Source: Thysanoteuthis rhombus (taxonomy: Eukaryota > Mollusca > Cephalopoda > Oegopsida > Thysanoteuthidae). From it: a stretch of DNA of 64,000 nt. Positions 29,860-60,944 of this stretch are shown one piece after another (within the stretch, counting starts at the first letter, position 1; every line of letters starts with the position of its first letter). The position numbers and the translations under genes are program-made. Under the pieces are notes generated by a model. That model was not told where the DNA came from, searched no databases, and saw nothing but the letters and a program-made list of their open reading frames with translations. The DNA is taken from positions 43,192,892-43,256,891 of the forward strand of contig OY735233.1 of the NCBI GenBank assembly GCA_963457665.1. Reading direction: 5' to 3'.

Positions 29860-29920
29860 ATGATTGCGTCGTTGCTGTTGATGTTATGCCTTTCCCCCAT
29901 GTGGGGGAAGGTTTCCACAG
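29860..29920 (+). CDS. Signal-peptide exon of the right-locus vWA gene
   Basis: ATG opens 20 codons, MIASLLLMLCLSP and WGKVST, and the exon ends in phase 1 at donor GTAAGA (29921). SLLLMLCL is a typical hydrophobic signal core, with cleavage expected near the end. The phase fits every downstream vWA exon. The frame stays open after the donor only through microsatellite DNA, which does not belong to the product. A TATA box lies 60 nt upstream. The exon shares length, phase and layout with the left-locus exon 20164-20230, though the peptide itself has diverged, as signal peptides do. Confidence 0.78.
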
Positions 29921-30063
29921 GTAAGACATCGAACAAGGTCGATGCTCCTATTGTATGTCCTTATATTCAGTTTCTCCGCATTTCTGTGCAATTTTCTCTG
30001 TTCTTATCGACCAATGTCCATATTTTCATTTTATGTATGTATGTATGTATGTATGTATGTATG

Positions 30064-30098
<35 letters not shown>

Positions 30099-30108
30099 TT
30101 GTCAGTTC

Positions 30109-30144
<36 letters not shown>

Positions 30145-30154
30145 TTGTCAATTC

Positions 30155-30186
<32 letters not shown>

Positions 30187-31139
30187 ATATCTCAGTCTCA
30201 TTCTATCTATTTATCAATCCATACGTACGTATGTTTTACCGTATCTATCTCTAATTTCCTCCCCTCTCTCGCTTCCACCTCTCTTTCTTTATCTCTCTAT
30301 ACATACAAACAATAATATATTGTTATTTATCTATCTATCTACCTTATTTTCTACCCCAGTCTGTTCATATCTGTCCAGTCACGTCTAAAATCTGTGAAAA
30401 TCTCAAGGATATATTTGAATTTCTGTAAAACGATTTCTTGAAAGGAAATCAGTGAATACATTTCAGTGGAAGAGTCTGTAGTTTCAAATGGTGGGTACGA
30501 GGTATATTCATCAGCAAAACTTCATATTACTTATTAACATAGCAGTTTTGTTTCAAATCATCAGTAGGATCGAACCCACTATCGGCAGCCAATAATATTG
30601 GCTTGCCAATGATTGATTTACGATGAAAGTTAAGATATTTGAATATAGCTAGGACCACGAAACCTTCTGTGGTTACCAATGGGACCCCAGAGCAGTATTT
30701 TCGCACATTAGCTTTTAAATATTCCGAAATCCTTTTTTGTACTGGCTTCGATCTACGATATAAGTATAATGCTGATCAGGACCCTCATTTTGTATGCGTT
30801 AGAATCGGTATCTTTTTCATTCCTAGACAGTGGACAACTAACTAGAAAGGAACGGTTCTCTGCTTGTTATGTCCTGATTTGAAAACTCACTTGAAAACCA
30901 GTCTAATATCTTGGGTGGACACCTTTGCGTTTCAGCGTTTTAAAATTTCCAATATTGACTCTGTTAACATTGGTTTTGCAAGAAATTGAATTTTATTAGT
31001 AAATCTGTCACTTTTAGCATTGCTCTCTAGAAAGGAAAAAGAAAAACAATGTTTAATCTGAACTATAATATGAATGTAGATTGCTCAAACTTTCCTAGTA
31101 TATGTTCGCATTATTTTCATTTAATTCTTTTTTCAACAG
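29921..31139. other. First intron of the right-locus gene
   Basis: It holds (GTAT)n and (CTAT)n arrays (30034-30190) and a weak tRNA-like B-box on the minus strand (GTGGGTTCGATCCTACT, about 30562-30578). The YLSIYLSI and VCMYVC frames are repeat artefacts. The remainder shows nothing. Confidence 0.7.
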
Positions 31140-31730
31140 CGCCGGTCGATAAGATTTGCAAAATAAAAAACACGGACGTCATCTTTGTGCTGGATACTTC
31201 CACAAGCATAACGAATTTGGATTTTCAGGAGACTCTGAAATTCGTACTGAAATTTGTCGATGATACCCCGGTCATAGGTAAGGAAGGTACAGCGGTCGGA
31301 ATTTACACGTTTGGCACCGGTTTCAGGAATGAGATTCCACTGGGAAAATATCAAGACAAGGCATCTCTGAAATCGGCCATACTGACCATCAAATCCAAAG
31401 GCGGATCAACGGAGACACACCTGGTCTTGGACGATGTCCGGGAGAACGGCTTCAGTGCCAGATCCGATGCCCGTCCGGATGCCCAGCGAGCTGTCGTGGT
31501 GATCACTGATGGAGAGTCCGTAGATACGGAGAAGACGAAAATTGCCGCTGTTAAACTACACCAGGCAAACATCTTTACATTTGCCATTGGTGTGGGTTCG
31601 GAAATCAGTAAGGAAGAAATGAAGACAATTGCCTCGACGGAAGAAAACTTCAGCTACGTTAAGAACTTTCAAGCTTTGAAAACAGTCGAGGAAAAAGTGA
31701 ACCGTGTTATTTGTGACCAGAAAGAAGTCC
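31140..31730 (+). CDS. Right-locus vWA exon 1 (vWA domain)
   Basis: A whole vWA domain in one class 1-1 exon of 591 nt. An N-terminal Cys (DKICKIK) is followed by strand 1 with a complete MIDAS (VIFVLDTSTS), VGIYTFGTG, the threonine loop GGSTETHLVLDDV and VVVITDGES. The core strand IFTFAIGVG and the closing Cys (VICDQK) complete it. Acceptor TTTTTTCAACAG ends at 31139 and donor GTAAGT starts at 31731. No intron splits the domain, unlike the left locus. It pairs with the next exon: same length and the same APVDKICKIK start. A role as an extracellular, cation-binding protein-interaction module is inferred from the family. Confidence 0.93.
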
Positions 31731-32323
31731 GTAAGTATCATCTGTTGTTTAATTCATTTATTAATTTATTCATTACATAGGCCATTCCCAAGTAAGTGTA
31801 AGACATTGCGGGTGATTGGCCTTACTCTTCTACGGCGGTCCGTGACGTGGTGGGGAGATAAGAGATGGATTCAAGCCTTTCCTTTTTTGGGGTCTTTCTC
31901 CCTTTAGGTGCAAAGACAAAAATAGAAAAAAAAGAGACAAAAAACCCCAACATTTTCCTTTGAGATATTATGTAATACACCTGAAGAAGGCAGTAGAATG
32001 AATCGGCCAAAACAGTGTATTACCATCAAAGTTGGGAAGAAGAGATTGGATTGTCTGAACTGAAGTTGTAATGTAATGTAATCGAAGTTATAGAAAATAC
32101 ATTTTGTCAACCTCCTGTACAAAGTCTGGGGTTGACTTATTTTTCCTACCGCAACAACGAGAACAATCCTCACCAAAATGATGGATGTAAACCAATATGT
32201 AAAATCCACATTCCCTTATGATTTGAACACACGAACAACTGATTATCAGGAGGCTGTCTTACTGACTGATCAAAATTGAAGTCTTAGATATTTACGAAAA
32301 TTTACCATACCGATACGCACGGG

Positions 32324-32370
<47 letters not shown>

Positions 32371-32619
32371 AAAAAATAATCAAGTGATTGCGTCATCCAT
32401 TGACAGCTGTATTACAACTCTTCAGTGTGGCTATAGACTATCCATTATCCCATCCAGTACCGGGAGGTAGGATTGAAACCTTCGCTTCAGACCCAGATAC
32501 TTAATAATTTCTTTCATTTGTTATGTTTACAATAGAAATGCAGTAATCCTCTCCATTAGAAATTGGAGTGAAATTCGACTCTGCAAAAGTCAGTCTATTT
32601 TCGTTTTTTCCCCCGACAG
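31731..32619. other. Intron with dispersed elements
   Basis: Contains family K (31885-32060; GAAGAAGGCAGTAGAATGAATC, CATCAAAG, GAAGAGATT), a (TA)n array (32327-32366) and inverted family B (32390-32510). No exon is seen. Confidence 0.6.
31885..32060 (+). repeat. Dispersed repeat family K, copy 1
   Basis: GAAGAAGGC.G.AGAAT.AATC..CC.AAAC, CATCAAAG and AGAAGAGATT recur at 61192-61290. The string GAAGAAGG…CCGAAACG is common at the ends of several invertebrate retroelements, Penelope-like ones among them; the class here is not determined. Confidence 0.5.
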
Positions 32620-33210
32620 CACCCGTTGATAAAATTTGCAAGATAAAAAAAACAGATATCATCTTCGTGCTGGATTCTTCTGGAAGCATTAAGGACCCAG
32701 ACTTTAAGGAGATTCAGCGATTTGTGTTGCAATTTGTCGACGCTACCCCGATGATAGGTAAAAAGGGAGTACAGGTAGGGATTTACACATTCAGCACTGA
32801 TTTCCGATATGAGATCGAGGTAGGAAAATATCAAAACAAGGAAGCCCTAAAATCGGCCATAATGTCCATCCGTAGGACGCGGGGAGGGACCCATACACAC
32901 TTGGTTTTAGACGATGTCTTGAAGAACGGCTTCAGTGCCAGAGCGAATGCCCGTCTGGACGCCCAGCGAGCAGTCGTGGTCATTACTGATGGAGAATCTG
33001 AAGAACCAGAAAGAACAAAAATGGCCGCCGCAGCATTACACAAAGCAAACATCATCACGTTCGCCGTTGGTGTAGGGAGGAATACTGGTAAATTTGAGTT
33101 GCGGGCGATTGGCTCCTCAGACGATAACATCAGCTGTGTGAAGAATTTTCAGGCTTTGGAAAAGGTTGGGAAGCAAATGAATAGTGTTATCTGTGACCAG
33201 AAACAAAGCC
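32620..33210 (+). CDS. Right-locus vWA exon 2 (vWA domain)
   Basis: 591 nt, class 1-1, same length as the preceding vWA exon. The N-terminal Cys (DKICKIK) leads into MIDAS (IIFVLDSSGS), VGIYTFSTD, RGGTHTHLVLDDV, VVVITDGES and the closing Cys (VICDQK). Acceptor CCGACAG ends at 32619 and donor GTAAGT starts at 33211. Amino-acid changes relative to exon 1 are spread over surface loops while the MIDAS is kept. The pair is an older tandem duplication, in contrast with the near-identical four further on. Confidence 0.93.
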
Positions 33211-33637
33211 GTAAGTATTAGAGTTTATTTTACAACCAAAACAGTTAACAGTCAACATGTTTTTTTTTTCAATAGCTTTCAAGTGATTCTGCCTGGCTGG
33301 TTATGTATGAATACTTACATGTATGTCATGCATCTGTAAATACCAGGTGCTGTATGTATTTGGGAGAGGTTCAAATCTGCAACACTCAAACCTTCCAGTC
33401 ATATTGGAGCTAATTGTCACTGGTCCTTAACTTTTTGAAGGTAGTATGTGCATAGAACAAGCACATATTATCTACTGTATGTACAAACGTCTCAGGAGAT
33501 ATGACCATCGCTTATCAAAAAGCAACAGTCACCATGTCACCCGTACGGTTCACACCAATGGAGACAGAGGGCCGAGTATTAAAGCCTATACTCCATATTC
33601 TGTCTTGAAAAAGAAACTGTTTTTGTGTTTTAAATAA

Positions 33638-33818
33638 ACCGCCAATACGCTCCGCAAATCAAATATTCAGGTTTTTGCTATCGGAGTTGGTAGACATATC
33701 GACAAAGCTGAATGGAAGAAAGTTCTTTTGTCCAAAGAAAACTTTCATTCCGTCATCAAATATTCCGAGCTGGAAAGTCTAGAAAATTCTATCAATAAGG
33801 TCGTCTGCAAGAAGCCAC
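33638..33818 (+). pseudogene. Orphan 3' third of a vWA exon
   Basis: The frame opens abruptly after a stop (33635-33637) with TLRKSNIQVFAIGVG, continues HIDKAEWKK and KENFHSV and ends at the closing Cys (VVCKKP). The donor GTAAGT is intact (33819). The first two thirds, with the whole MIDAS, are absent. An AG stands just before VFAIG (ATTCAG, 33665-33670) in phase 0, so it might still be spliced as a short exon, but phase 0 would not follow the phase-1 exits upstream. A truncated relic is most likely. Confidence 0.75.
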
Positions 33819-33884
33819 GTAAGTACAAATCTTGTATAAGGACACATTTATAATGTAACTAGAAAATACCCGGAAAACGCCCGG

Positions 33885-34150
33885 ATAGTGTAATGGTTAG
33901 CACGTCTGCCTCGTACAAAGAAAGCTGCCAGATTCGATTCTCTATTTTCCTGTGCACTCATCATTTAATTGAGTACACTCTAAGCTGAGTGATTAAGGGG
34001 AGGTATATCTTCGGGAGACTCACAACCTGATAAGGGGAGGGAGTGATAAAATCTTTTTTAGGTATAAAATCCTTGACAGACTTCGGACTTGCAAGTATCA
34101 CTTCTCTGAGGTACGCAAGAAAAACATACCCATCAACCAATTTTTAGAGG
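33885..34150 (+). repeat. tRNA-derived SINE
   Basis: The head GCCCGGATAGTGTAATGGTT has a tRNA A box and AGATTCGATTCTC a B box at the expected spacing. The body (…GAGTACACTCTAAGCTGAGTG…) resembles 13400-13560. It is a relic and not a tRNA gene, because the stems do not pair and the sequence continues as a SINE body. Confidence 0.6.
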
Positions 34151-34309
34151 AATTCATTGTCTACTTTTTAAGATATCGTTGGGGCAGATATGAAATTCTG
34201 GTGACATCTAATCGACGTAATTATGCATGGATCCGACCCCATATTCTATCACTTCTTCCGTAGCTTTTTAGAGACGTTGCGTGAACAGTAATGAGCAAGT
34301 ACATAAACG

Positions 34310-34550
34310 TATGAAAAATAAAAACAGAAATACGTGGATATACACTACATGACATTTTAATCTAAAATTTCCTACGTTCAACTCCCTCCGTCGACCTGCT
34401 ACAGCCAATCATCGCAGCACACCGTCCCCTCCATCAGAACGACAACCCCCAACGCACCCAGTATAAAAGGAAAGGGGGGCTAAAAGAGAGAGGCAAGACG
34501 AATAAAATAGAGTATTATCTGTTCCCTTTTCCCTTTACATTAGGTGGGTC
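34310..34550 (+). repeat. Possible solo LTR
   Basis: CAGTATAAAAGG (near 34459) is followed about 40 bp later by GAATAAAATAG and a CT-rich stretch, the order of promoter and poly(A) signal in an LTR. No second LTR or internal domain is seen and the ends are undefined, so this is only a possibility. Confidence 0.25.
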
Positions 34551-36032
34551 GGCAGTTGCCGTGTTGGCGGAGTGGAGCATCCAGTTTGTAACGCTGTACA
34601 CAGCCCTTCCAAATTAAAATATTCCTTAGAAATCACTATCGAAAAAACTGAGACTAAACTGAAGGGCTCCGTCTTCCCGGTCGTAAAACCTGCCAGTTCG
34701 ACATCACCAGCTAGGTTAGCGGCCTTACGCATTCATGCAAGTTGAGGCAAGGCCGTCCAAATAGAAGAGGGTGCAACTCTCACATTCTATGCACACTCCC
34801 AATTTGTTCCTCCCTGATCACACAATTTATGGTGTACTCAATGAGCAGCTGATTGCACAGGGACATTTGTCCTACTAGGGAGTATTCCCACACTCTTCGT
34901 TCATACCAGAAATCGAACTTGATGTGCTTTCTATTGTACCATCTGAGTGGCCTCATACAAATACTATATTATATTCATTCTACTAAAGAATCAGCATTCA
35001 AAATCCTCGCTTTTACCTGAGCTCGAACACCAACCACTGGCACAGGTGTAAGATATGCAATTATCAAGACCACGAAATAGACAACAATCTTCCAATTGGA
35101 AACGGTATATTTGCCTGAAAAAGCTGCATTTGAAATCCATGGTTCGACTTGGCTCGAATACCAGTGGAAAATAACAATAGTCAAACTTAATTTTCCAGAC
35201 GCGTCCTCATCTCCCTATCAGAGGCAGGCTCTGTCCGTCAGTCGCAAGGTCGATCTGTCCCGTACTGTTTCTCAGTTGTTTCAAGTCAGATTTACTTGAA
35301 ACTTTGTAGAAAGGTGTTCCTTGACGAAATACTTCGTGATCTGGCAATGATCACGTTCAAACTTTATGTCTAAAAATCGATTTTCAAGTCAGATTCACAT
35401 GAAACTTGATGGGAAGGCCCTCCCCTACGAGATATTTCTTACCTATAATCACCTCTTACCCAGGGTCACGTGATCTGGAAATAATGGCGTTTAAACTTTA
35501 TGGTTGACGACGCCTCATTGAAGGTTTGGTTCTTGTTTTCCTCAACAAATATGTTATTAGAAACCTCCTATCTAAACTGTCACCAAAACTGTCAACATAG
35601 GTTTCTTCAGTTTTCGAATTGGTCTGGCTGCTATGTATGTATGTATCATACATATAGACTGCATCTATAGAACTAGTGTTGAAAATTACAGTATCATATC
35701 ATGCGTAGAAAAACGTGTTTTTGTTGGTGTTTTTTAGACTTCGCCCCCTAAATAGATTTTTAGCGAGTTGGGGGAGAGGGGAAGTTAGTTTGCAATTTGA
35801 GTTTATGCTAAATTGATTCCTTACTTTGTATTCGGTAGCATTCACTCTCATGATCACTCATTGGTGAGATTGGATTTTCGTGATCAAACAAAAGACGAGA
35901 GAAGTAACATTCATCAATGGGATCTTTTCCCCTCCTTTTGTTTAATTGATCACTCTGACACGGTATGCCACGGACATGACAGTTTCTATTGAGTGACTAA
36001 TCATACCTGTTTTTCTTTGGGGTTGCTTTCAG

Positions 36033-36620
36033 TGTGTTCGATCAATCCTGTTGATGTTGTCTTCGTACTGGACTCTTCGAGCAGTCTGAAAGACGAAGAC
36101 TTCAAAAAAGAGATTGACTTTGTGACGGCATTCGTTACCAGGTCCGAAATTGGCCCTAAACACATCCAAATCTCACTCTTCACTTTTGCCGACAAATCGA
36201 ATTTCTTAATCAAGCTGAATGACTTCAAAGATAAGAAAGCATTATTGCAAAAACTTAAAGGCATCAAACGAGACCAGGGAAATACATTCACAAACATAGC
36301 CCTCGATGACGTCAGGATGCATGCTTTCTCGTATACAAATGGTGGACGTGGATCAGGTGCTAAACAAGCGGTAATCGTCCTCACAGACGGGAGTTCTGTG
36401 ATCCCAGAGGCGACCAAAAAAGCGGCTGACACACTTCATTCCTTAAACGTCGACGTTTTTGCTGTCGGGATTGGGAAAAAGGTCGATTTTGTGGAGCTGT
36501 ACAACATCGGCAACAATAGAAACAACGTAGTTACCGTTCCTGATTTTGAGGGTCTGAAAAACATCGAAAAACAAATTCTGCAAAAAGTTTGTGTGACCCA
36601 CAAAAAAGTGCCCGAAATAG
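36033..36620 (+). CDS. Tandem vWA exon, unit 1
   Basis: 588 nt, class 1-1, one whole vWA domain. The N-terminal Cys (VCSINPVD) leads into MIDAS (VVFVLDSSSS), ISLFTFADK, the threonine loop QGNTFTNIALDDV, VIVLTDGSS and VFAVGIGK. The closing Cys is in KVCVTHKK. Acceptor TTGCTTTCAG ends at 36032 and donor GTAAGG starts at 36621. Frames that run past the exon on either side are intronic. Product: one of nine A domains in the inferred secreted protein, or one alternative exon of a set. Confidence 0.93.
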
Positions 36621-36711
36621 GTAAGGCTTTCCTTTCATACCATAACAGGTTGCCCGATTGGGCTGCAAAGGGAGATAATCTGAACTTTATAGCCAAGACT
36701 TAACACAGGCA

Positions 36712-36789
36712 TTGAATTTGGAAATCTCAAATTTGGAACCCACCGAATCACTCGATTTCCAAATTCAACGCTATTCCAATGCCTGTGTT
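36712..36789. repeat. Foldback (imperfect inverted repeat) after each tandem vWA exon
   Basis: AACACAGGCATTG…AATTTGGAAATC on the left is mirrored by GATTTCCAAATTCAA…CAATGCCTGTGTT on the right, with an 11-nt extra stretch in the right arm. The same foldback follows the exon in units 2, 3 and 4 (near 39231, 41745 and 44254) with a few changes. It could be a small MITE or an RNA hairpin in the intron, about 90 nt after the donor. Confidence 0.75.
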
Positions 36790-38551
36790 GGGTAAGCAAA
36801 GCTCGGATGATCTCCCCTTGTAGTCCAATCTGGCAACCCTGTTTTATACGTGTGTCATGCTATTACTGTGAGAAGGGTGGCATTTTCTGTTTGGGTTTTG
36901 TTCATCTTCGACTTGACAAACTTTGTCTTGATGAATTTGTTTTAGGTTTTCATGATGAGGGATTTTGGGCCTGTTCCTGCTCTTTGCAAGTATTTTTGAG
37001 TATGAATGTATTGAATACAATTATTTCTCTTTCGTCTATGTCTAACGTGACCTAATTGGTTATCTGGTAGACGAAAATTAACTGATTGTCACATGAACGT
37101 ATAGTCATAGCATGGCACATCTCACTACGACTAAGCATGTAAACGCCCTTTTAGCCCTGATTGCTTTCCTACGTGAATCTACTTCCAAGGTGGAAAATGT
37201 CAAGACTGAATCGTGAATTGAAATCGGGGGTCTAGGTTAGGACCCTTATCTGCAAGGTTGTATTCCAAAGAATGAATCATATATGAGTCTGTGCTATACT
37301 TTCTCTAAGTTGTTAACTAATCGTATTTCTGATGCAGATTTATTGTTGCAATTCACCGAAATTTTATTTTATTGCCGTGTGTCAACGGGTATTAAAAGAA
37401 TTACACAGCGTTTTATAAGTATAAAAATACAAGAATGATCGTCAAGCTCCCGACCAAGATGAAGGCTGGAGTCTATTTTGCACCTACCTCCGTAACATCA
37501 ATACCGATCAAAAAACCTCAACCAATTTAGGGGAGTAAATTCTTCACCGTCTGTCCCTTCACGTTACACTAAACCGACAACCTTTTATACTCTTTTTCAT
37601 TTTTGTGTCTGACGGTATTTGTTTATGTGTTTATGTGTTCCAACGCTCCTGGTCGTGCCGTTTTGTCTACAAACTTGGAAAGTACTCCGCTTGATCCTTT
37701 CTGAGAATGTTTTTTTTTTTTTTAACAAAAAGCTTTTTTCAACTTTTCGAGTCCTTATTTTGACGGCTGTATCAATATCAAATAGAATCTCCAGAATCTA
37801 GATGTTTTTAATTTAAAAAAAATCCTTCTCCAGATGTTTCCACTAGAAAACACCAGTGATGTCAATGATAGAATTCAATTATTGAATGTAATGGCGAGTT
37901 TTAATTTCGTTTACTTTACGATACAAGTCCTTCGACCGTCAGAGTGAGTATACGAAGCGGATTGGAAACACCTCTTACTCAGGGTCACGTGATCTGGAAA
38001 TGATGGCGTTTAAACTTCATGGTCGATGACGCCTCATTGAAGGTTCGGTTCTTGTTTTCCGCAACAAATATGTTATTAGAAACCTCCTGTCTAAACTGTC
38101 ACCAAAACTGGCAACATAGGTTTCTTCAGTTTTCGAGTTGGTGTGGCTGCTATGTATGCATGTATCATACATGTAGACTGCATCTATAGAACTATTGTTC
38201 AAAAATTTAGCATCATATCATGCGTAGAAAAGCGTGTTTTTATTGGTGTTTTTTAGACTTCGCCCCTAAATAGATTTTTAGCGAGTTGGGGGAAAAGGGG
38301 AAGTTAGTTTGCAATTTGAGTTTATGCTAATTTGAATCCTCACTTTGTATTCGGTAGCATTCACACTCATGATCACTCGTTGGTGAGATTGGATTTTTGT
38401 GATCTAACAAAAGACGAGAGAAGTAACATTCATCAATGGGGTCTTTTCCCCTCCTTTTGTTTAATTGATCACTCTGACACGGTATGCCACGGACATGACA
38501 GTTTCTATTGAGTGACTAATCATACCTGTTTTTCTTTGGGGTTGCTTTCAG

Positions 38552-39139
38552 TGTGTTCGATCAATCCTGTTGATGTTGTCTTCGTACTGGACTCTTCGAG
38601 CAGTCTGAAAGACGAAGACTTCAAAAAAGAGATTGACTTTGTGACGGCATTCGTTACCAGGTCCGAAATCGGCCCTAAACACATCCAAATCTCACTCTTC
38701 ACTTTTGCCGACAAATCAAATTTCTTAATCAAGCTGAATGACTTCAAAGATAAGAAAGCATTATTGCAAAAACTTAAAGGCATCAAACGAGACCAGGGAA
38801 ATACATTCACAAACATAGCCCTCGATGACGTCAGGATGCATGCTTTCTCGTATACAAATGGCGGACGTGGATCAGGTGCTAAACAAGCGGTAATCGTCCT
38901 CACAGACGGGAGTTCCGTGATCCCAGAGGCGACCAAAAAAGCGGCTGACACACTTCATTCCTTAAACGTCGACGTTTTTGCTGTCGGGATTGGGAAAAAA
39001 GTCGATTTTGTGGAGTTGTACAACATCGGCAACAATAGAAACAACGTTGTCACTGTTCCTGATTTTGAGGGTCTGAAAAACATCGAAAAACAAATTCTGC
39101 AAAAAGTTTGTGTGACCCACAAAAAAGTGCCCGAAATAG
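38552..39139 (+). CDS. Tandem vWA exon, unit 2
   Basis: 588 nt, class 1-1. The encoded domain is identical to that of unit 1 (VVFVLDSSSS, NTFTNIALDDV, VIVLTDGSS, KVCVTHKK). I count nine base differences between the two exons, all synonymous. Acceptor ends at 38551 and donor GTAAGG starts at 39140. Identity of protein with scattered silent changes points to selection on the product. Confidence 0.93.
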
Positions 39140-41065: not shown

Positions 41066-41653
41066 TGTGTTCGATCAATCCTGTTGATGTTGTCTTCGTA
41101 CTGGACTCTTCGAGCAGTCTGAAAGACGAAGACTTCAAAAAAGAGATTGACTTTGTGACGGCATTTGTTACAAGGTCCAAAATCGGCCCTAAACACATCC
41201 AAATCTCACTCTTCACTTTTGCCGACAAATCGAATTTCTTAATCAAGCTGAATGACTTCAAAGACAAGAAAGCATTATTGCAAAAACTTAAAGGCATCAA
41301 ACGAGACCAGGGAAATACATTCACAAACATAGCCCTCGATGACGTCAGGATGCATGCTTTCTCGTATACAAATGGCGGACGTGGATCAGGTGCTAAACAA
41401 CTGGTAGTCGTCCTCACAGACGGGAGTTCCGTGATCCCAGAGGCGACCAAAAAAGCGGCTGACACACTTCATTCCTTAAACGTCGACGTTTTTGCTGTTG
41501 GGATTGGGAAAAAGGTCGATTTTGTGGAGCTGTACAACATCGGCAACAATAGAAACAACGTTGTTACAGTTCCTGATTTTGAGGGTCTGAAAAGCATTGA
41601 AAAACAAATTCTGCAAAAAGTTTGTGTGACCCACAAAAAAGTGCCCGAAATAG
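41066..41653 (+). CDS. Tandem vWA exon, unit 3
   Basis: 588 nt, class 1-1, frame open, MIDAS intact. It differs from units 1 and 2 by E to K (RSKIGPKH), AVI to LVV before LTDG, and N to S (GLKSIEKQ). Acceptor ends at 41065 and donor GTAAGG starts at 41654. The start of the intronic frame differs (AATAAGATCTG for AATCATACCTG) without touching the acceptor. Confidence 0.93.
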
Positions 41654-43574: not shown

Positions 43575-44162
43575 TGTGTTCGATCAATCCTGTTGATGTT
43601 GTCTTCGTACTGGACTCTTCGAGCAGTCTGAAAGACGAAGACTTCAAAAAAGAGATTGACTTTGTGACGGCATTCGTTACCAGGTCCGAAATTGGCCCTA
43701 AACACATCCAAATCTCACTCTTCACTTTTGCCGACAAATCGAATTTCTTAATCAAGCTGAACGACTTCAAAGATAAGAAAGCATTATTGCAAAAACTTAA
43801 AGGCATCAAACGAGACCAGGGATATACATTCACAAACATAGCCCTCGATGACGTCAGGATGCATGCTTTTTCGTATACGAATGGCGGACGTGGATCAGGT
43901 GCTAAACAAGCGGTAATCGTCCTCACAGACGGGAGTTCTGTGATCCCAGAGGCGACCAAAAAAGCGGCTGACACACTTCATTCCTTAAACGTCGACGTTT
44001 TTGCTGTCGGGATTGGGAAAAAGGTCGATTTTGTGGAGCTGTACAACATCGGCAACAATAGAAACAACGTTGTTACCGTTCCTGATTTTGAGGGTCTGAA
44101 AAGCATTGAAAAACAAATTCTGCAAAAAGTTTGTGTGACACACAAAAAAGAGACGGAAAGAG
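43575..44162 (+). CDS. Tandem vWA exon, unit 4
   Basis: 588 nt, class 1-1, frame open, MIDAS intact. Differences from unit 1 are N to Y in the threonine loop (QGYTFTNIAL, metal Thr kept), N to S (GLKSIEKQ), and a changed last stretch (THKKETERG for THKKVPEIG). Acceptor ends at 43574 and donor GTAAGG starts at 44163. This unit carries an RTE insertion in its downstream intron. Confidence 0.93.
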
Positions 44163-46931: not shown

Positions 46932-47591
46932 TGTGTAAATCCGTACCGGTAGATGTCATCTTTGTTCTGGATTCTTCAGATAGTGTCAAGCAAAACGACG
47001 TTCAGAACTACATCAAGTTCTTAACCAATTTTGTGAAGCACGCCAAGATCGGCCCTCAAAACATCCAGGTCGGTCTCTTCCTCTTTGCCGATGACTCGTC
47101 TCTCGTGATTAAGCTTAGCGATTTAAACGATAAAGAACAACTATTGCAACGAATCCAAGGCCTAAAACGTATCCATGGTGGAACATACACTGACAAAGCC
47201 CTAGAAGATGTACGCACCCATGGTTTTGCCGCAGCAAACGGTGGACGGGGCAAGAAGGCCAAACAGGTAGCCATTGTCATTACAGACGGAGAATCTTTGC
47301 TACCGAAAAAAACCAAAGCTGCTGCCCAAGCCCTCAGAGCGATGAACGTACAAGTATTTGCTATCGGCGTGGGGAAAGAGAACATTGGAGAGCTTCGTGA
47401 TATAAGTAGTGATAGCAATCATCTGTACGAGGTGTCTGACTCTGGAAGTCTGTCCAGTATTGAACATCAACTGTTCAAAAAAATATGCCATAATAAGTCA
47501 ATAGATGAGGGTCTAAGTACCCCATCAAGTGGAGGAAGAAATACTGGGGTTGGTAGCACTGGTGTAAGCATTACTACCCCACCAATCATTG
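46932..47591 (+). CDS. Right-locus vWA exon with Gly/Ser/Thr-rich tail, copy 1
   Basis: 660 nt, class 1-1. The N-terminal Cys (VCKSVPVD) is followed by MIDAS (VIFVLDSSDS), VGLFLFADD, the loop HGGTYTDKALEDV, AIVITDGES, VFAIGVGK and the closing Cys (KICHNK). A tail of about 35 residues rich in Gly, Ser and Thr (STPSSGGRNTG, STGVSITT) follows, which looks like a flexible, possibly O-glycosylated linker. Acceptor TTTTTCAG ends at 46931 and donor GTAAGT starts at 47592. Its near twin is 56876-57508. The reverse-strand frames over it are shadows. Confidence 0.93.
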
Positions 47592-47817
47592 GTAAGTAGC
47601 AATGTTTTTTCTTATCTTTAATCAATATTATAATGATCTGATATCTGTTTGTGGGTGGGTTGTGTGTTACCGTAATACAACAAAAACGGCACATTGTGGC
47701 GAGATCTTTTTTGAGCAATACACATTAAATGCTCTACCTAAAGTAATTGAACGTCCCATATAGAAACCATTAGACAGTACAGTGTATTACAAAAAACAAA
47801 AAAACAAAAAACAAAAC

Positions 47818-49429: not shown

Positions 49430-49645
49430 AATGGAAACTACACCTGCCGTGAGGTTAGAGAGAAGGAAAGGAAGAGAACGGGAGGAAGTAACCGACTAAG
49501 AAAGCCGGGACAAATGAGCGAGTGAGCACGTGCGTTCCGAGCTTTTATAGGGAGAATACGGAGGAAGTGTCGTTCTGTATACCAAGCTAAATTTATGGTT
49601 TTGTATCTAAAGTTTGTACTTAATTCATTTTCATTTTTAATGCTT
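49430..49645 (+). repeat. Dispersed repeat family D, copy 2
   Basis: Direct relative of 5110-5340 (GAAGTAACCGACTAAGAAAGCC, GAGCGAGTGAGCACG, ACCAAGCTAAAT). Non-coding. Confidence 0.55.
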
Positions 49646-50584: not shown

Positions 50585-51565
50585 CCATTCACCCTCAAGT
50601 GTTTATTACACATTTTCATTCACCTTCAAGTCTTCATTAAACAATTTCATTCACTCTCAAATCTTTTTTTTTTACAAAATTTCATTCACGCTTAAATCTT
50701 CATTACAGGATTTCATTCACCCTCCAGTTTTTATTACAAATTTAATTCGAACTCAATTCTTCATTATACAATTTCATTCACCCTCAAGTCTTTTTTGCAA
50801 AATTTCATTCGCACTTAAGTCTTTATTATACCATCAATTTCACCCTCAAGTATTCATTACAAAATTTCTTTTGCCGTCAAGTTTTTATTTCAAAATTTCA
50901 TTCACCCTCAAGTATTCATAACAAAATTTTATTCACCCTCAATTTTTCATTACGAAATTTCATTCATTCTAAAGTCTTTTGCCCAAAATTTCATTCACTC
51001 TAAGTCTTTATCACAAAATTTCATTCCCCCCCCAAGTTGTTTTTACAAAATTTCATTCGGCCTCAAGTCTTTACTATACGATCTCATTCACCCTCAAATC
51101 TTTATTACAAAAATTCATTCACCGCCAAGTTTTCATCACTGATTTCATCCACCCTCAACGCTTCATTACAAAATTTCATTCATCGTCAATTCTTCATTGC
51201 ACGCATCTTTATTTTACAATTTCATTCATCTTCTAGTCTTCATTACAAAATTTCATTCGCCCTTGAGGCTTTTTGTAAAATTTCATTCATAATTAAGTTT
51301 TTATTACAAAATTTCATTCACCTTCAAGTCTTTATTACAAAATTTTATTGACCCTAGAATCATTTTTGCAAAATTTCATTCACCCTCAAGTCTTGATTGC
51401 AAAAATTCATCCACCCTAATGTCTTTTTTGCAAAATTTCATTCACTTTTAAGTGTTTATTACAAAATTTCATTCACCCTAATGCCTTTTTTACAAAATTT
51501 CATTCACTCTCAAGTCTTCATTACAAAATTTCATTCACCTTCAAGTATTCTTTCGAAAATGAATT
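50585..51565. repeat. 31-bp minisatellite, about 30 copies
   Basis: The unit is close to TTCATTCACCCTCAAGTCTT followed by TATTACAAAAT, 31 bp in all. It recurs head to tail with scattered substitutions and small indels over nearly 1 kb. As 31 is not a multiple of 3, the frames across it (QNFIH, ITKFHS) rotate through three phases each 93 bp and are by-products. No unique spacers separate the units. Confidence 0.93.
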
Positions 51566-52035
51566 CATCCTTGACGGAATTTATTCATATTTCCATAATT
51601 TTCATCCTATTCTCTCTTGTATATAATTTTGTACATAATCCATCTTGTACAATTGGGTAGAAGATATTTTACATTACGATAATAGAGAAAGACAATGCGG
51701 AAACCAAGTTTTTGCAGTAATCCTTTATTCTTGTGATATGTTTTGACAATCATTATCACACTGAATGGAATGAAAATATAAAAGAATGGGCTCGGATAGA
51801 TTGGGGGTTTGACGTGGATGATACTGGGTTCGGAGACTAGTGGGCGTGATCATATTCGTAAGGAGACTTGTCTCTAAGTTTGAAGCCCTGGTTTGTATAA
51901 GCGGGACTAAAGTGTGGCGAAGGAGTGCAGATTTATGATCATCACCCGCGACTTAGTATCCAAACCCCTCATCACCCCTTACAGATTCCCCCCTCCATCC
52001 AATTCCACCCTTTGGTATGTTCATTTCATTCAATT

Positions 52036-52456
52036 TGTCTTTGTGACGGTATTCGTTACCAGGTCCCAAATTGGTCATGCGAGCCGAACGACTTCAAAGA
52101 CAGGATTATTGCAAAAGCTTAAAAACATCCAACGAGACCAGGGAAATACGCGGACAGAACCCTGGCTGGTGTTAGAATGCTTGCTTTTTCGTCTGCAAAT
52201 GGCGGTTGTTGGTCAGGAGCAAAACAAGTGATAATCGTCTTTACGGACGGGGGCTCCGTGATCCCAAAGGCGACACACTTAACTCTTTAAACGTCGAGAT
52301 TTATGCCGCTGGGATTGGGGAAAATGGTCGATGTTGAGGAGCTACACATTATCGGCTGCAATCTCAACAACGTTTTTACTATCCCTGATTTTGACGGTCT
52401 AAAAAAGATCAAAGGAAAAAATTCTGACGAAAATTTGTGTTCCACAAAACAGTGAC
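52036..52456 (+). pseudogene. Wrecked copy of the tandem-type vWA exon
   Basis: Recognisable pieces in order are TVFVTRSQIG, LQKLKNIQRDQGNT, RMLAFSSANGG, IVFTDGGS, and later IPDFDGLKKI. Strand 1 with DxSxS is missing, the FADKSNF loop is deleted, and there are several frameshifts and stops. The closest relatives are the exons in the 35-45-kb tandem units (same RDQGNT and PDF(E/D)GLK). It lies 6 kb past the array and is clearly dead. Confidence 0.85.
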
Positions 52457-52639
52457 AACGCAGAGCCCCATAGATAAAGTTTTCAATTCATACATACGTC
52501 AGGTTTATTCAGATTGGGCACTCCTTTTCCCGAACTCCAAGAACCGAAATGTTAAAAAATCCGAAACGTTTTCAAAGCTAATTTTTGTTATGTTCTGAAC
52601 CTGGAAAATACCAGCAAGCAATAGCCATGAAATAAAATC

Positions 52640-52644
52640 ATCAT

Positions 52645-52676
<32 letters not shown>

Positions 52677-52980
52677 TCATCATCAGTCTTTTATCGTCCG
52701 TCGTTGCACATAGAACTGCCCCAGGATTCTCTATCATGGGCGTCACAGAGCCAGTATTTTCTGAATCTGTCTAGTTCATCTATCCATCTTGTAATCTGTC
52801 AGCCTCGGTTTCTCATGTGATATCTGGGGATCCATGTTGTGAGTCGTGACGTCGATCGGTTATCTGCCATTCTGGCAACATGGCCTGCCCATTGCTATTT
52901 GAGTTTTTTAAAATAGTTTCTATGATGTCTCTGACTCCCGTTTTCTTCCTGATATATTGTGTCCTCTTATGTAAGAACTT
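52640..52980 (-). mobile_element. RTE-like retrotransposon, 3' fragment with CAT/CAG tail
   Basis: The tail (52640-52685) reads CATCATCATCATCAGCAGCAG and on to CATCATCATCAG. The body follows to the codons of KTGVRDII (ACTCCCGTTTTCTTCC). It is 5'-truncated and carries a small deletion in the body. Confidence 0.85.
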
Positions 52981-53439
52981 TTTACAAAAAAACAACGACT
53001 GTTTTTTACACGGTCTTATTGATGGAAGACAAATACTCGTTAGTAAAGCCGAGATTACTCCTCCCACATTACAAACCCCATCCCAAATATCTCTCATCAT
53101 GTATATGTAAATATTCCGAAATCCAAAAAATACCGGATAAGGGATACTCAACATGGATGTCGCTAATTAAAAATTGTAGATAATGTTATCAAACGGTTAT
53201 TTTTATCAAAATTAGTGGGTCCTAAATATTCTATTTACTTTGAATTTCATTTACGCATTATTTACTCGAGTCCAGTGTGATCTCGAATATATTGCAATCT
53301 GTTGTTCTTCTAGCTAAAAACCAGTAATCCATTCACATACATTATCATTTTTTACATTTGGGTATGACTCTACCCCAACTCTGATTTTGGCCCTTATTTT
53401 CTTTATCAAATTTCTCGCATCATAGACAAATAAATACTG

Positions 53440-53735
53440 TATCCATTCAGTCGTGTCTCTCCAACCAGATTAAATCATGTCCGTCTCTCTGTCCAAATTA
53501 AATCGTGTCTATTTGCCTGTCCACATTCAGTCGTGCGTGTCTACCAGTTCCCATTAAATCGAGTCCGTCTGACAGTCCACACTGAATCACGTCTGTCAGC
53601 ATGTCGAAATTAAATAGTCTGTCTACCAGTCCACTTTAAATCATGTCCGTCTGCTAGTCCACACTGATTTGGGTCTGTCTGCTTGTCGAAATTAAATCTT
53701 GTACGTCTGTCTGTCCACATCCAGTCGTGTCCACA
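53440..53735. repeat. 28-bp minisatellite, about 10 copies
   Basis: The unit is near ATTAAATC(A/G)TGTCCGTCTG followed by CCTGTCCAC. It alternates between an ATTAAATC form and an ATTCAGTC/ACTGAATC form, so a two-unit higher order may exist. Non-coding. Confidence 0.85.
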
Positions 53736-54115
53736 CAACATCTCCAATTCTCTCTGAATTTCAAAGATATATTGTTGAAAGGTAGGCCATGGCCAAGGAA
53801 GAATGAATTAAATTTTGGGGCGGACCCGAGTTTTGTTTTGATGGAGACACATTGTGCAGCAGACAGCAGCCATAATGTATACGTATCCACCCTTATATGT
53901 CTGCTTTTCCACAGAATATCTCCAAGAGATTTCAGCAAATTTCAAAGACATTTTGTGGAAAGGTGGGCCAGAAACTAGACAAGAATTGATTACATTTTCG
54001 TATGGATCCAGATTTTTTTTACAGTTACCTCCCAGCATCTTGACTATATGTTCATGCAATATCTCAAAAGTTCTCAATGAATTTCAATGCCATTTTGTGG
54101 AAGGGTTGGCCATGA
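53735..54115. repeat. Three diverged copies of a 140-180-bp unit
   Basis: ATATCTC(C)AA, TGAATTTCAA…CATTTTGTGGAAAGGT(T)GGCCATGAG and ATTAAATTTTGG…GGATCCAG recur in order near 53739, 53918 and 54060. The short frames over them are repeats of each other and not a gene. Confidence 0.7.
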
Positions 54116-54163
54116 GTTGAAAAATAATTGATTCAATTTTGGAGTGAATCCAGGAATTTATTT

Positions 54164-54213
<50 letters not shown>

Positions 54214-55094
54214 TGAGATAAACAATAGTTGGAAATACAGAAATTCTAAACACTGTTATCTCCCCTTCATCGTAGCTATATATCAACCGTTTTTTATTCA
54301 GTTTTTAATAAGTATATGGAGTTGGCAAAAACAAGTGCTCCCTGAGTGTTTTTCGTTAGTTTATTTAACCCCCCCCCCCAATTTTTAAACTTCTGTGATT
54401 TGTACATTGTTCATCTATATTCAAGGTCATATAAGGACAGTTGATATCGAACGATGATGAAACATACTGATGAAATTTGTGCTGGAAAATAATAAAAAAT
54501 GTAATTTCATGCATAGTTTCCTCTATGTGTGCGCAAACACACTTTGTAACTAAAGCACAAAGGGAATCAATGTGTGCACAAAAAAAAATTTTCTGAGAAG
54601 TTAGATGGCCCCAACAAAATAGTAGAAACCGCCACATAATTCTATAGTAGAACAACATTTTGACAAGATTCTTGTGTGCATTGACAAATAAAAAGTAGAG
54701 GGAATATCGAAACACCAGGAAGCAGAGGTCCCAAATTAATCGACCCCCCCCCCAAAGTATGTTACTTAAAAGTATCTCGTACGTACATGAAGGGTTAACA
54801 TGATCTATACTTTTCAGATGTCCGAAAATTGCTTATTAGTCAAACTGACTGTTTGTCAAAAAGTCTTCAAAAAATAAATTTTCACAGATAAGACGCGGTA
54901 TCACTTTATGAAAGTATATAGTTTATTGACAGCTCACAAACGCACTGTGTCTATTTTCCGTTACTTCACACGTTGAAGAAAAATTACCACAGCCATGACA
55001 ATTATAACTATTATTCTTGATTTTTTGGGGAGTTGTTAGACATGAAATGTTATTTTTAGATGCGTGCACCCATTGCAGCGATAGCTGTCACTAT

Positions 55095-55410
55095 CTGACT
55101 GGCTGTCAAATCGACATAGCAAACTCCTCACGCCATCACGATTTATTTCACTCATACTCCTTCTATAAAAAAAAAAAAAAACAGCATTTATCTAATGTTG
55201 CTGTAGTGACAATTCATTATTACGTCATCAGAATACCGAGTTCTATTTTACTGCGTCAGGAGACAAACATGCGTCATTTGCATAAATAATATTCTATTTT
55301 ACTATGATATTAGCGTTAAGTGAGTATGCTTTCGGAGGAAAAGGTATGGGCTTCTAAATGAAAAGACTTGTAAAGGCAGTAAAGATTGAACTAGGGCATC
55401 TATTGTCTTA
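55095..55410 (+). repeat. Dispersed repeat family J, copy 2
   Basis: Direct relative of 24050-24400, with an A-run of 15 near 55168 in place of the AATAAATC area. Confidence 0.5.
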
Positions 55411-55437
55411 CTATGATGGTAAGATAAAGTGTGAGAC

Positions 55438-55645
55438 ATCATCATCATCATCATCACCAGTCTTTTAACGTCCGTCGTTGGACATAGACCTTCCTCAGGA
55501 TTCGCCCCAATTCTCTATCGTGGGCGTCGCTGAGCCAGTATCTTCTAAATCTGTCTAATTCATGTCTCTATCTTGTATTCTGTCGGCCTCGGCTTTGCAT
55601 GCGATCTCTGGGGATCCATATTGTGAGTCTTGACAACATAAAGGG
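55438..55645 (-). mobile_element. RTE-like retrotransposon, 3' fragment
   Basis: (CAT)n tail, CAGTCTTTTAACGTCCGTCG and the reverse complement of the tail domain to about GTGAGTC. 5'-truncated. Confidence 0.85.
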
Positions 55646-56875
55646 TAGAAGTTTGATCAAAATATGACATATTTAAAGCCATACCCCTTTTTTCCCAACG
55701 TCCCTCAAATGATAATATCCCGCCTCTGTAAAGATGTTTTAGTCATTATGGATGATATGGTCAGACTATTTTTCTCGTCTTCGTTGAAATTTCTACAACG
55801 TCTTGGCTGTATATCCTCCGTCTTTCGTCGGGTGTTGTTGGTTTGAGAATGTGGAAATTCCGTTAAAGCACGATTCATAGCTTCCTCAACATTGAACCTT
55901 TTCACGAATGTATTTTCGGACAGTTGCCCTCATCTCGGCTCTTATGAACGAAGTTTCAACCGTTGCAACCTACAGCCTTCTTCGGCTGGGTGTCCGGGGG
56001 TGGGGTTCGAGTTGCCGAAGCGTCATCGAAGCTTGGGGACGGAATCCACGGTAGTGCCGTGGTCTGCATCGTCTCAATCCATCTTTTCAATCAAATCATC
56101 TTTTCGTCAGGTGCCACGAACTTGACTCCAATATATTTGGCACTGTTCCAAGTGAGCCTATTATTATTTGCGCTATGCTGACCTTCAAATTCTCTTTCAG
56201 CTCCCGGGTCAAGTCCTTTGGCACAGTTTTGAAGGCTCCAACCATTGTCATCTTCATGCTCTACAACTTCTTCGGCTCTGTGACAAGGTCGAATGTTTTA
56301 GTCCCTCGACATTTCAACTCATTCTATCTCGATTCTATCACTCGTGACTTTGCATGTTCACACTAGATGTCTAGAGGTTGTCGGTGGAGAATGAATGACA
56401 AATTTCCACCACTTTCTCTCCGTATATCCCAGCACTGCTGTTTCAATTCTTCCTTGAAACTTTTATTATTATTAGAAACCGTCAGGCAAAAACTATCACA
56501 AAATAGTCTGCATAAGCTTCTTTTAAAAAAATGGGTTTGGTGGAGATATGTTCGTATCGCTATTCGAAAACGTCCCCAAAGGAGTTGGATAGAAGTTTAT
56601 AAGTATACTGGATATTCACTACATAATATTATAAAACAACGATGATATATGTATACATATACGAATTTCAGAAATAAATTCAGCCATTGGTTTTTTTTAA
56701 TTTCACGAGTCAATCGATAGTTCATGTCTATTTATTGCAATTTTTTTCTCTTTCATCAAATCTCACTGAATGTTGGAGGGGTTGGGATCCTCAAGCCAAG
56801 CCCCGGGACCACAAATCCCAAGTTACGCCTCTGGGTTAACGTCTCTACGTCATAATCTTTTTCTTTGTTTTTCAG

Positions 56876-57508
56876 TGTGTAAATCCGTACCGGTAGATGT
56901 CATCTTTGTTCTGGATTCTTCAGATAGTGTCAAGCAAAACGACGTTCAGATCTACATTAAGTTCTTAACCAATTTTGTGAAGCACGCCAAGATCGGCCCT
57001 CAAAACATCCAGGTCGGTCTCTTCCTCTTTGCCGATGACTCGTCTCTTGTGATTAAGCTTAGCGATTTAAACGATAAAGAACAACTATTACAACGGATCC
57101 AAGGCCTAAAACGTATCCATGGTGGAACATACACTGACAAAGCCCTAGAAGATGTACGCACCCATGGTTTTGCCGCTGCAAACGGTGGACGGGGCAAGAA
57201 GGCCAAACAGGTAGCCATTGTCATTACAGACGGAGAATCTTTGCTACCGAAAAAAACCAAAGCTGCTGCCCAAGCCCTCAGAGCGATGAACGTACAAGTA
57301 TATGCTATCGGTATTGGGAAAAAGAACATTGGAGAGCTTCGTGATATAAGTAGTGATAGCAATCATCTGTACACGGTGCCCGACTTCAAAAGTCTGTCCA
57401 GTATTGAACATGAACTGTTCAAAGAAATATGCCATAAAAAATCTGGAAATGGGGATCGAACCACCCCATCGAATGGAGGGGAGACCAATACTACCCCAAA
57501 ACCCAATC
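56876..57508 (+). CDS. Right-locus vWA exon with Gly/Ser/Thr-rich tail, copy 2
   Basis: 633 nt, class 1-1. It is near-identical to 46932-47591 over the domain (VIFVLDSSDS, GGTYTDKALEDV, AIVITDGES; Cys in VCKSVPVD and EICHKK). It differs at the end of the domain (VPDFKS for VSDSGS) and in the tail, which is shorter (TTPSNGGETNTTPKPNR). Acceptor TTTTTCAG ends at 56875; the donor GTAGGT (57509) is weaker than in the twin. The upstream frame that starts at 56770 is intronic. Confidence 0.92.
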
Positions 57509-58219
57509 GTAGGTTGCAATGTTTTTTCTTTCTCTAATTGTGAATCAATATCATTATGGTCCGATTTCAGTTTGGGGTGGCTGGTGTGTTACTGTAACAC
57601 AACCAAAACAGCAGATTGTAGCGAGATCTTCGTTGAGTGCACTCGAGAGTCTGTCTAAGGGAGATTACTCCATGTTTACTGATTCCTAATTATTTTTATT
57701 TTTCTTGCTCTCCGTGTCTATCTTTACTTTACTTTCGTTCTTTCCACGTATTTCAAATCTTTTACAATCCCTGAATGATGTAGTAATTTTTTCCTCAAAT
57801 AGAATTTATTAGTTTAAGTAGAAATCGGCTCACTGGAATTCACAATTAACACTTCATAAGCACATATTCTAATAGGCAAATTATTTAATTTAAAAAACAC
57901 CAATTCCTTTGAGCAAAAGACTCATGTAAAGATCTATTGTAATTTAAATGTAAGTATCATTTTTTTTTTTTAGATTTTTAAATTTTTGTGAAAGATTTGG
58001 ATTGTTAATACTATTATATTTTCCTATTCTTATTTATCATTTTATCTTAATTATAAGGTATTTCTAAAATTGTATGAATACGAGAATTATACTGTATTTA
58101 AAATTCATATGTGTGTACCTCTTATAAGGTATCAAGTTTGAATATACTTTTAATAATGGTATATACGACTCTTTCCTCTCTCTCTCTCCCTCTCTCTCTC
58201 TCCCTCCTCTCTCTCTCCT

Positions 58220-58318
<99 letters not shown>

Positions 58319-60396
58319 AAACACTGTATAGTCTAATTTCTTTCTTATTTCTTTTTAATTTTTTTCACCTCGATGATAAATTTGAAATAAGAAATATGTC
58401 ATAATGTGACATAAGAAAATCCGGAATTAATAGCCAGTTAAAAGTATTGGGCGCAGTATTGTTTTTTTACACTTTCTCTATTCGTCCTTTCTTATGAACG
58501 CTATGAACCAATTCAAATTCGGTCTGAACGAAAGAAGGTCTTGGTATTCAGAGAACTGTTGACTTTTTCAATAGAGTCTTAAAGAATGGGTATATCATTC
58601 GATAAGAGGGAATAGAATGAGTACATATATAACATCTTTAGCTATAAAATTAGCTGGAAGTAGCAAAGCTCAACAGATGTTCTAGCCATTTTCAGCCATT
58701 TTCGACTGTTGCTTCGATACTTGCCAACATAGTTGAAAACAAACGCTTGATACGTCATCTATTGATCAGAGTGGATGTTTCCTTAATGACGTCACACATT
58801 CTCTTCCTTTCTCCTTCTTGTTGTTTAAATAACGTAATTGGAACTGGCTGACCGACCGACCGACTGAAAAGCGTATTATAGAGACGTGTCGACTCAGACT
58901 AAAGAGAGCATGTCATCTGTTACCAGTTGTTGATTAAGCATTATCTTTCATCTTGGATCTTTAGTTGCTTTTTCTTGATGGTGGTAATTTGACAATGCGG
59001 AAGTGAAGAACTTGTGAAAACAAATGTTCAGTTGCACTAGCGTTTTCAAAACCACTTAACGATAAAAAAAAGATACCAAAATGTGTAGATGTTTTCATGT
59101 TTGGGTGTAGATATTAACTGAAGAAAAAAAATGGGGTGTGTAAACACATTTGCCACTAGCAACTAATTCAGACTGTCAATCTATGGCAGTAAACAAACGG
59201 GGTAGATAGTCAAGATCAGGGTCAGATTCACAGTACAGCCAAAGTAACACGAGCAACGGGTCCCTCAATTTCAAGAGCCACGCCCAATACTTCTAACAGG
59301 CTATTAATTCCAGTTCAATGGTTCTGTACTTCAATGCTAAAGCTATAATACTGCCTTTAACTTTTATGAACGATTGAGTGTTTCAAGTTAGCAATTATTA
59401 TTAGCCATTACCTTTGATTTAAGTGATTAACACGGTAATTAATGGAAATGTGGTGTCTGTGCGATAGATATACGGTGCGTCAATACGAAGGTATTTGAAA
59501 CTGAAGTCATAGCTGCTTCACAAATAGTAAAACAAAAACTAACTAATACTATTACTAATATACCAAACATATTTGCCGAATTATCTTGTTGTATTGCGAA
59601 TGAAAACACTAATGATTTTGAAGCAAAAAATGTATGTGTTTTTTTTATATTTGTGTGAATTTTCCTAATTCGAGGTCCCTTTATCATTATCATGATTCTC
59701 TCTTGTGCGTATAGCATGGTTTTTAGTAACGCCGATCTAATAAGGTTCCATGTTTCAGCTCCGTTCAGAGACTGTCGTTCAAATCGTGCTTCCAATACAG
59801 CTATTTCTGTCGTACATAGACGAACTCTCGGTGTGCAATATCCCGATAAAGACAAAAAAATTAGTAGCTTCTAACTTCATTATTGTGTTAATATCTGGTC
59901 AATACGTTGATTATACTTCATGGGGGCCGTCGTATAACTTTACAAGTATTACGAGAAATTAAAGTAAAAGCAAATAGGTGACTTCTTTTTAAAATTTTTC
60001 TGTTTATTTCATTATCGTGTTAATATCTAATGAATAAGTTGTTTGATTATTATGGCTATTGTTATCTTCCCTGTTTCAAAATGGTCACCGCTTCAGCTGC
60101 AATGTTAGTGTTTTTTCTAGGCTTAATGTTTTGTTTTTTTTTAGGTTTAGTGTTTTCAGGGTTAGGGTTAGGGTTATTGTCGTCTGCTTTTTTGACTTTA
60201 GATATATCAACGCCTGCCATTTCACAGGTGGAGTGACAACCATTTTTAAACGGAAAGGCAACAAATGTCTACTTTTTGATTGATAAATTTTAAAAAAAAT
60301 GAATGAATTTTTGTAGCTTTTGTATGATGTGTCTAAGTACCATATTTTTCATCCGTATAACCAAGGATGACCGAAGTGTATCTTATTTTTCAACAG
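57509..60396. other. Last intron of the right locus
   Basis: Holds a (CT)n(TA)n array (58170-58316), a scrap of RTE (59690-59765, minus; HERIM and GAETWN-type codons) and three GGGTTA units near 60157-60175. Otherwise nothing recognised in about 2.9 kb. Confidence 0.6.
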
Positions 60397-60944
60397 AATG
60401 CAACGAGGACAGCAAGAAGATGGCAGACGTTGTATTTTTGCTGGATAACTCGGACAGTGTCACTGACGATATGTTCACGAAAGAAAAAATGATGGTAAAA
60501 AAATTCATCTCATCGCACACCATAGGCCCCCAGGATGTACAGGTATCGGTTATTACGTTTGGTGACAAAGCCACTGAAGCGTTCAACTTGAAACAAAATG
60601 TTGGTGATATCCAAAGGAGCAAAGGTTCGACAAAAACCGGAGAAGCCCTGAAGTTAGCTAAGAGTAAGTCGCTACAACAGAGTAACGGCGCCCGTATAGC
60701 TTCACATAAAGTCGTTATTGTCATCACTGACGGCTCATCTGACGATGTATACAAGACCAGTATGGCTGCCAAAGCTCTCCAGGAGAACGGGGTTAATATC
60801 TTTTGCATTGGAATTGGAAATCCTGATATTTTCGAACTTGAAAAATTAACTGGAAATCCATCCAAAATATTCATGACGGCTGGCGGAATCGATACGATCA
60901 GCAAAAAGATATTCGACGGTGAATGTGGACCTGTGAAGGCATAG
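60397..60944 (+). CDS. Right-locus terminal vWA exon
   Basis: Phase-1 entry after acceptor TTTTTCAACAG (ends 60396), then an N-terminal Cys (ECNED), MIDAS (VVFLLDNSDS), VSVITFGDK, the loop KGSTKTGEALKL, VIVITDGSS, IFCIGIGN and the closing Cys (GECGPVKA), ending in TAG at 60942-60944. The stretch between FGDK and the threonine loop is about nine residues shorter than in the other exons. It is the only vWA exon here with a stop and the most diverged. A GTGAAG just before the stop could be a donor, but in phase 0; a true terminal exon is more likely. Confidence 0.88.

Follow-up and report, generated by a model that had tools for sequence, protein, structure and literature searches.

A 64,000-nucleotide (nt) stretch of the genome of the cephalopod Thysanoteuthis rhombus (GenBank assembly GCA_963457665.1, contig OY735233.1, positions 43,192,892 to 43,256,891 of the forward strand; hereafter the window) contains what, as predicted from the genomic sequence, is probably a single gene encoding a secreted chain of nine von Willebrand factor type A (vWA) domains and no other module. 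The original prediction for this DNA was an in-frame join of ten exons, one for the signal peptide and nine for vWA domains (named W1 to W9; Table 1), of which the first eight are class 1-1 and the last is terminal; splicing them in silico bore this out: the ten exons give 5,436 nt, 1,812 codons and 1,811 residues with the sole stop at the end, every intron is bounded by GT and AG, and all junctions from the signal exon through W9 are in phase 1. The signal exon at 29860 has a normal signal-peptide look and the best donor among the plus-strand candidates (phase-1 donor, hydrophobic core); of the others, three at 17.2 kb and a pair of reading frames at 29942 all run into microsatellite.

All nine vWA exons match the Pfam family VWA (PF00092), scoring 120-141 bits against a curated cut-off of 23.8, which places them in that family. 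Membership of PF00092 is possible without a metal ion-dependent adhesion site (MIDAS), for which the residues D-x-S-x-S, T and D are the criterion for metal binding; when aligned with other vWA arrays of the genome, the window domains have these residues (D, S, S, T, D) complete in nine of nine. Likewise, a Cys precedes and follows the core of every domain, so that the expected MIDAS and one Cys per side are present throughout, with one additional Cys each in W2 and W9. In the predicted protein the spacing between domains, from Cys to the Cys of the next domain, is 6-11 residues, rising to 35 after W7 and 26 after W8, where the long linkers are Ser/Thr/Pro-rich.

The gene probably grew by duplication of exons and of larger units, with occasional exon death. 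Specifically, W3-W6 constitute four head-to-tail units about 2.5 kb apart and are, to judge by their sequences, recent tandem copies with mostly synonymous differences. Their exons show no indels between copies, whereas pairs among units W4-W6 show 5-6 indel events in about 1 kb of upstream intron and 0-3 downstream. Pairwise synonymous divergence (dS) within W3-W6 is 0.065-0.108 and non-synonymous divergence (dN) 0-0.018; by manual count 9 of the 28 variable exon columns are non-synonymous, where neutrality would predict about 78% (binomial p 3e-7, a guide only, since columns lack independence from copy to copy and gene conversion is possible). The pair W1 and W2 is 64% identical, with dN 0.22 and dS 1.13. 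We consider an assembly artefact at W3-W6 unlikely, the units differing by about 3-6% in alignable intron and having private indels. In a first tree (tree 1) all eight distinct W rows, including that of W9, form one group (97/97) against two vWA arrays on another contig (C19), and in a second (tree 2), to which exons from contigs C12 and C31 and a minus-strand neighbour gene were added, W1-W8 group together (91/86). This clustering indicates that the array, perhaps with the exception of W9, grew largely within its own gene.

Several observations weigh against this picture of one constrained nine-domain gene, and some of them favour more than one gene or isoform, such as a transcript of the signal exon with W1-W7 and a separate transcript of W8-W9, or exon-skipping forms, an arrangement which we regard as unlikely, if the most plausible of the alternatives. 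The internal exons are all class 1-1 and could be skipped without a frame break. A 9.3-kb intron separates W7 and W8, and within it lie two weaker plus-strand signal-exon candidates (48930 and 52922/52925); however, the donors of both are poorer than that at 29860, the candidate at 52922 visually recalls a repeat open reading frame (ORF) at 26 kb read in antisense, and the two vWA exons flanking the intron are nevertheless 89% alike. By the criteria used, 288 kb-strands contain 31 signal-peptide-like exons, genuine ones among them (0.11 per kb and strand), so that the chance of one falling within 1.2 kb of W1 is about 0.13. Tree 2 puts W9 outside the W1-W8 group without a resolved position, and in both trees W9 has a long branch, of a kind on which the tree program issues a warning. 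Among the single exons fetched, detected vWA exons number only three on contig C12 and two on C31, and the last on each ends at a stop, but in the window there is no stop-bearing terminal vWA exon ahead of W9. In favour of a single gene, no further single-exon vWA was found within 30 kb upstream, nor in the readable 20 of 30 kb downstream, of which the remaining 10 kb read N. As regards constraint, W7 and W8 (dN 0.065, dS 0.117) are less constrained, and pairs involving unit W3 score 10-11 upstream indels, counts that are inflated because the W3 flank lies partly outside the unit. Finally, two dead vWA copies (Table 1) mean that the locus also decays; these relics were absent from the original prediction, as was the divergent vWA gene next door.

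A second alternative is that the gene is a mosaic of the collagen VI, matrilin or Pif/BMSP type, whose short or diverged non-vWA exons were missed. vWA arrays are typical of these proteins, and one array of the same genome (C19:36.90 Mb) has EGF-pattern exons 2-6 kb upstream; all the same, we judge this alternative very improbable from the scans of the window, which detected vWA domains only, as had been predicted. None of 100 plus-strand intron and 3' ORFs (each 52 residues or longer, lying outside the vWA exons and non-trivial in composition) passed a Pfam cut-off, the weak hits below it being one vWA relic (16.7 bits) and chance-like ones such as Importin_rep_2 (17.9), FYVE_2 (17.2), BTP and UPF1_Zn_bind. 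Patterns for EGF, TSP1, collagen, chitin-binding and other modules were also sought on both strands of 29000-64000: EGF, TSP1 and collagen had no match, and the three matches in all each fell in a repeat or intron ORF; nearly the same EGF pattern, serving as a positive control, has five matches at C19:36895147-36898757, ahead of a different vWA array. Moreover, a module spliced singly between W exons would be class 1-1, and candidates of this class were therefore scanned. With strict splice scores, which exclude several real exons, the single candidate above 30 residues was a piece of a vWA relic, and with relaxed scores, which admit all real exons, 12 donors gave candidates, none of them domain-like by eye except the relic. 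These scans leave uncovered exons in ORFs below 52 residues of phase classes other than 1-1, and short exons could be missed.

The three families can also be taken in turn. Membership of the collagen VI family was rejected, since the Gly-X-Y pattern is not matched in 29000-64000 and, in a genome search that scored 150 of 439 candidates, none of the 92 collagen matches listed lies near the locus or on C19. Matrilins are extracellular vWA proteins with EGF modules and a C-terminal coiled coil. The predicted protein shares with them an extracellular vWA make-up, but membership was rejected as there is no EGF pattern match in that region, and no C-terminal coiled coil was found, only five residues following the final Cys of W9. 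Pif/BMSP are molluscan shell matrix proteins, bivalve BMSPs having four tandem vWA domains (PMC11291548). They differ from the window gene in carrying chitin-binding domains, none of which was found in it; membership was rejected given the Pfam result for the 100 ORFs, and the two CBM14-pattern matches come down to one repeat ORF and one intron ORF, with no CBM match in Pfam.

That the locus is a decaying or silent tandem array, open only through its youth, is highly improbable: the two dead relics and the few percent separating W3-W6 would fit it, but the synonymous excess and lack of exon indels among W3-W6, the intact splice sites throughout and the low dN relative to dS between W1 and W2 all argue against it.

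On the evidence of sequence, the closest named protein to the predicted nine-domain chain is, by architecture, the mussel proximal thread matrix protein 1 (PTMP1) and, by PDB sequence profile, collagen VI alpha3. In the profile search collagen VI alpha3 came first (667 bits, 10 stretches) and PTMP1 second (219 bits, both domains). Two vWA-like domains make up PTMP1, for which collagen binding is known (PMC4754843), and the window gene as read has the same composition, a signal peptide and vWA domains only. The likeness to PTMP1 (PDB 4cn8) is thus that of a vWA-only matrix protein, both of whose domains match the window profile, and it is one of architecture and profile; the difference lies in the number of domains, two as against nine. 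Collagen VI alpha3 has ten consecutive N-terminal vWA domains, and those of the alpha4-alpha6 chains mostly have a Cys at both ends, as described in PMC3919171, which also reports that the conserved MIDAS is missing from most collagen VI vWA domains. The window gene therefore resembles collagen VI in its row of domains and, as regards alpha4-alpha6, in the Cys at both ends, but differs in having no detected triple helix and a complete MIDAS in every domain. In one survey, mollusc vWA proteins average fewer than two domains, with, for instance, 111 proteins and 150 domains in Octopus bimaculoides, where the species assignment comes from an incomplete list (PMC11291548). The earlier view that a long vWA-only chain is unusual stands to the extent that no vWA-only protein longer than PTMP1 was recognised in the open-access literature searched; it has to be tempered by the make-up of PTMP1, itself two vWA domains and nothing more, by the run of ten in collagen VI alpha3 and by larger arrays elsewhere in this genome, such as the 37 exons at C19:12.14-12.37 Mb.

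In vWA domains generally, the N and C termini are close, a disulfide between terminal Cys stabilises a number of domains, and the MIDAS is involved in ligand binding (PMC3919171). By extension, each domain of the predicted protein would form a compact bead, sealed by a disulfide between its own N and C ends, with the beads tied together by short linkers. Those after W7 and W8 would likely be flexible and possibly glycosylated, so that two flexible hinges might be expected near the C terminus. Each MIDAS could accommodate a divalent cation and engage a ligand, the likeliest being, by analogy with PTMP1, collagen or some other matrix protein; with nine such weak sites per chain, the protein would gain avidity. 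A multivalent, cation-dependent adhesive role may fairly be proposed on these grounds, and collagen binding or a general cross-linking of matrix is our best guess at its purpose. Taken together, the predicted protein would best be read as resembling an extended PTMP1, a cation-dependent chain of beads in the extracellular matrix. If the gene is transcribed as read, a secreted chain can be built from one metal-dependent adhesion module alone and lengthened by recent exon duplication. It would then be intermediate between the two-domain mussel byssus protein and arrays of the collagen VI type, and would offer a simple system in which to ask how avidity in matrix or glue proteins depends on the number of sites.

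The assembly as a whole comprises 2.73 Gb in 514 contigs, and a search of it for vWA gave at least 150 matches above the cut-off (150 of 150 scored, of 265 candidates). The nearest relatives of the window exons outside their own contig (C38) are exons on C12 and C31, where the last exon detected on each contig lacks a phase-1 donor and has its stop ten residues past the final Cys, an ending broadly similar to that of W9. The five single exons fetched from these contigs, one of which (C12b) has a poor donor and an uncertain end, suggest a family plan of a signal exon, a variable number of vWA exons and a terminal vWA exon.

A larger array, on the minus strand at C19:12.139-12.372 Mb (12139672-12372540), consists of 37 tandem vWA exons. 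A Cys pair flanks all 37 and the MIDAS is complete in 33; the exon finder sought only phase-1 borders and found them for all 37, so that class 1-1 is possible. Position 12372540, immediately upstream, has a signal-exon candidate. Of this region 40 kb were read whole (35 kb readable); they showed no EGF, TSP1 or collagen pattern, and their one chitin-binding-pattern match is noise-like. The array thus resembles the window gene in vWA exons readable as class 1-1, flanking Cys and a mostly complete MIDAS, and differs in its 37 exons. Its exons may code for one giant protein, vWA-only and roughly 7,000 residues long, or else belong to two or more genes; between 12.290 and 12.231 Mb no vWA was detected over some 60 kb, and the introns read were a minority. 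Its exons stand apart from those of the window in both trees, except for A12361970, which is placed beside them in tree 1 (81/88). Upstream of this array, on the same strand, three vWA exons at C19:12378794-12395243 have no Cys and a degenerate MIDAS. The second array on this contig, on the plus strand at 36.90-36.99 Mb (36895147-36989648), has 28 vWA exons of 555-564 nt, many of them nearly identical, with no flanking Cys and a complete MIDAS in none; a vWA-only status cannot be claimed for it, given the five EGF-pattern exons upstream.

It may be, though we put this forward only tentatively, that there are lineage-specific, vWA-only secreted proteins lengthened by exon duplication, with domain counts ranging from the two or three detected on C31 and C12 through the nine described here to perhaps 37 or more (C19:12.14-12.37 Mb), forming polymer-like adhesive chains with dozens of MIDAS sites. 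If true, this would be a class of giant matrix or glue proteins not met in the open-access literature searched. Further clusters of vWA exons were seen at C36:35.2-36.6 Mb, C6:14.1-14.2 Mb, C8:8.47-8.49 Mb and C47:29.6-29.9 Mb.

Table 1. Predicted exons, putative signals, relics and neighbouring vWA features, in window positions.
Feature	Position	Strand	Remarks
TATAAA, putative core promoter	29795-29800	+	ends 60 nt before ATG
Signal-peptide exon	29860-29920 (61 nt)	+	MIASLLLMLCLSPMWGKVST; phase-1 donor AG|gtaaga
vWA exon W1	31140-31730 (591 nt)	+	class 1-1; MIDAS intact; Pfam VWA
vWA exon W2	32620-33210 (591 nt)	+	class 1-1; 64% amino acid identity to W1
vWA relic	33641-33814	+	C-terminal 58 residues only (profile 131-188); VWA about 16.7-16.8 bits, below cut-off; N-terminal part not found
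vWA exon W3	36033-36620 (588 nt)	+	unit 1 of four 2.5-kb tandem units
vWA exon W4	38552-39139 (588 nt)	+	domain protein identical to W3
vWA exon W5	41066-41653 (588 nt)	+	98% amino acid identity to W3
vWA exon W6	43575-44162 (588 nt)	+	97% amino acid identity to W3; unit 4 of four
vWA exon W7	46932-47591 (660 nt)	+	Ser/Thr/Gly/Pro-rich C-terminal linker
vWA relic	52037-52449	+	frameshifts, two TAA stops; in 9.3-kb intron; 47% identity to W3 over residues 56-188
vWA exon W8	56876-57508 (633 nt)	+	89% amino acid identity to W7; Thr/Pro-rich linker
Terminal vWA exon W9, stop codon included	60397-60944 (548 nt)	+	mid-domain gap of about nine residues relative to W3
AATAAA, putative poly(A) signal	61367-61372	+	starts 423 nt past stop
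Neighbour gene, signal-exon candidate	20230	-	exon scan
Neighbour gene, split-exon vWA domains	about 16470-16144 with 15007-14775; 3052-2717 with 1727-1492	-	intron at about profile position 112

The neighbouring vWA gene lies on the minus strand, running from window position 20230 down to 1492 and past the window start into C38:43164798-43191965. It is divergent, and its five joined domains form a separate clade in tree 2 (100/100). Two apparently broken vWA copies were also seen in its region, at 11799-12368 and 9793-10209. Between the two genes, an ORF at 26120-26554 resembles what we take to be the end of a long interspersed nuclear element (LINE) reverse-transcriptase protein, and the intron before W8 contains a 31-bp tandem repeat at 50699-51642.

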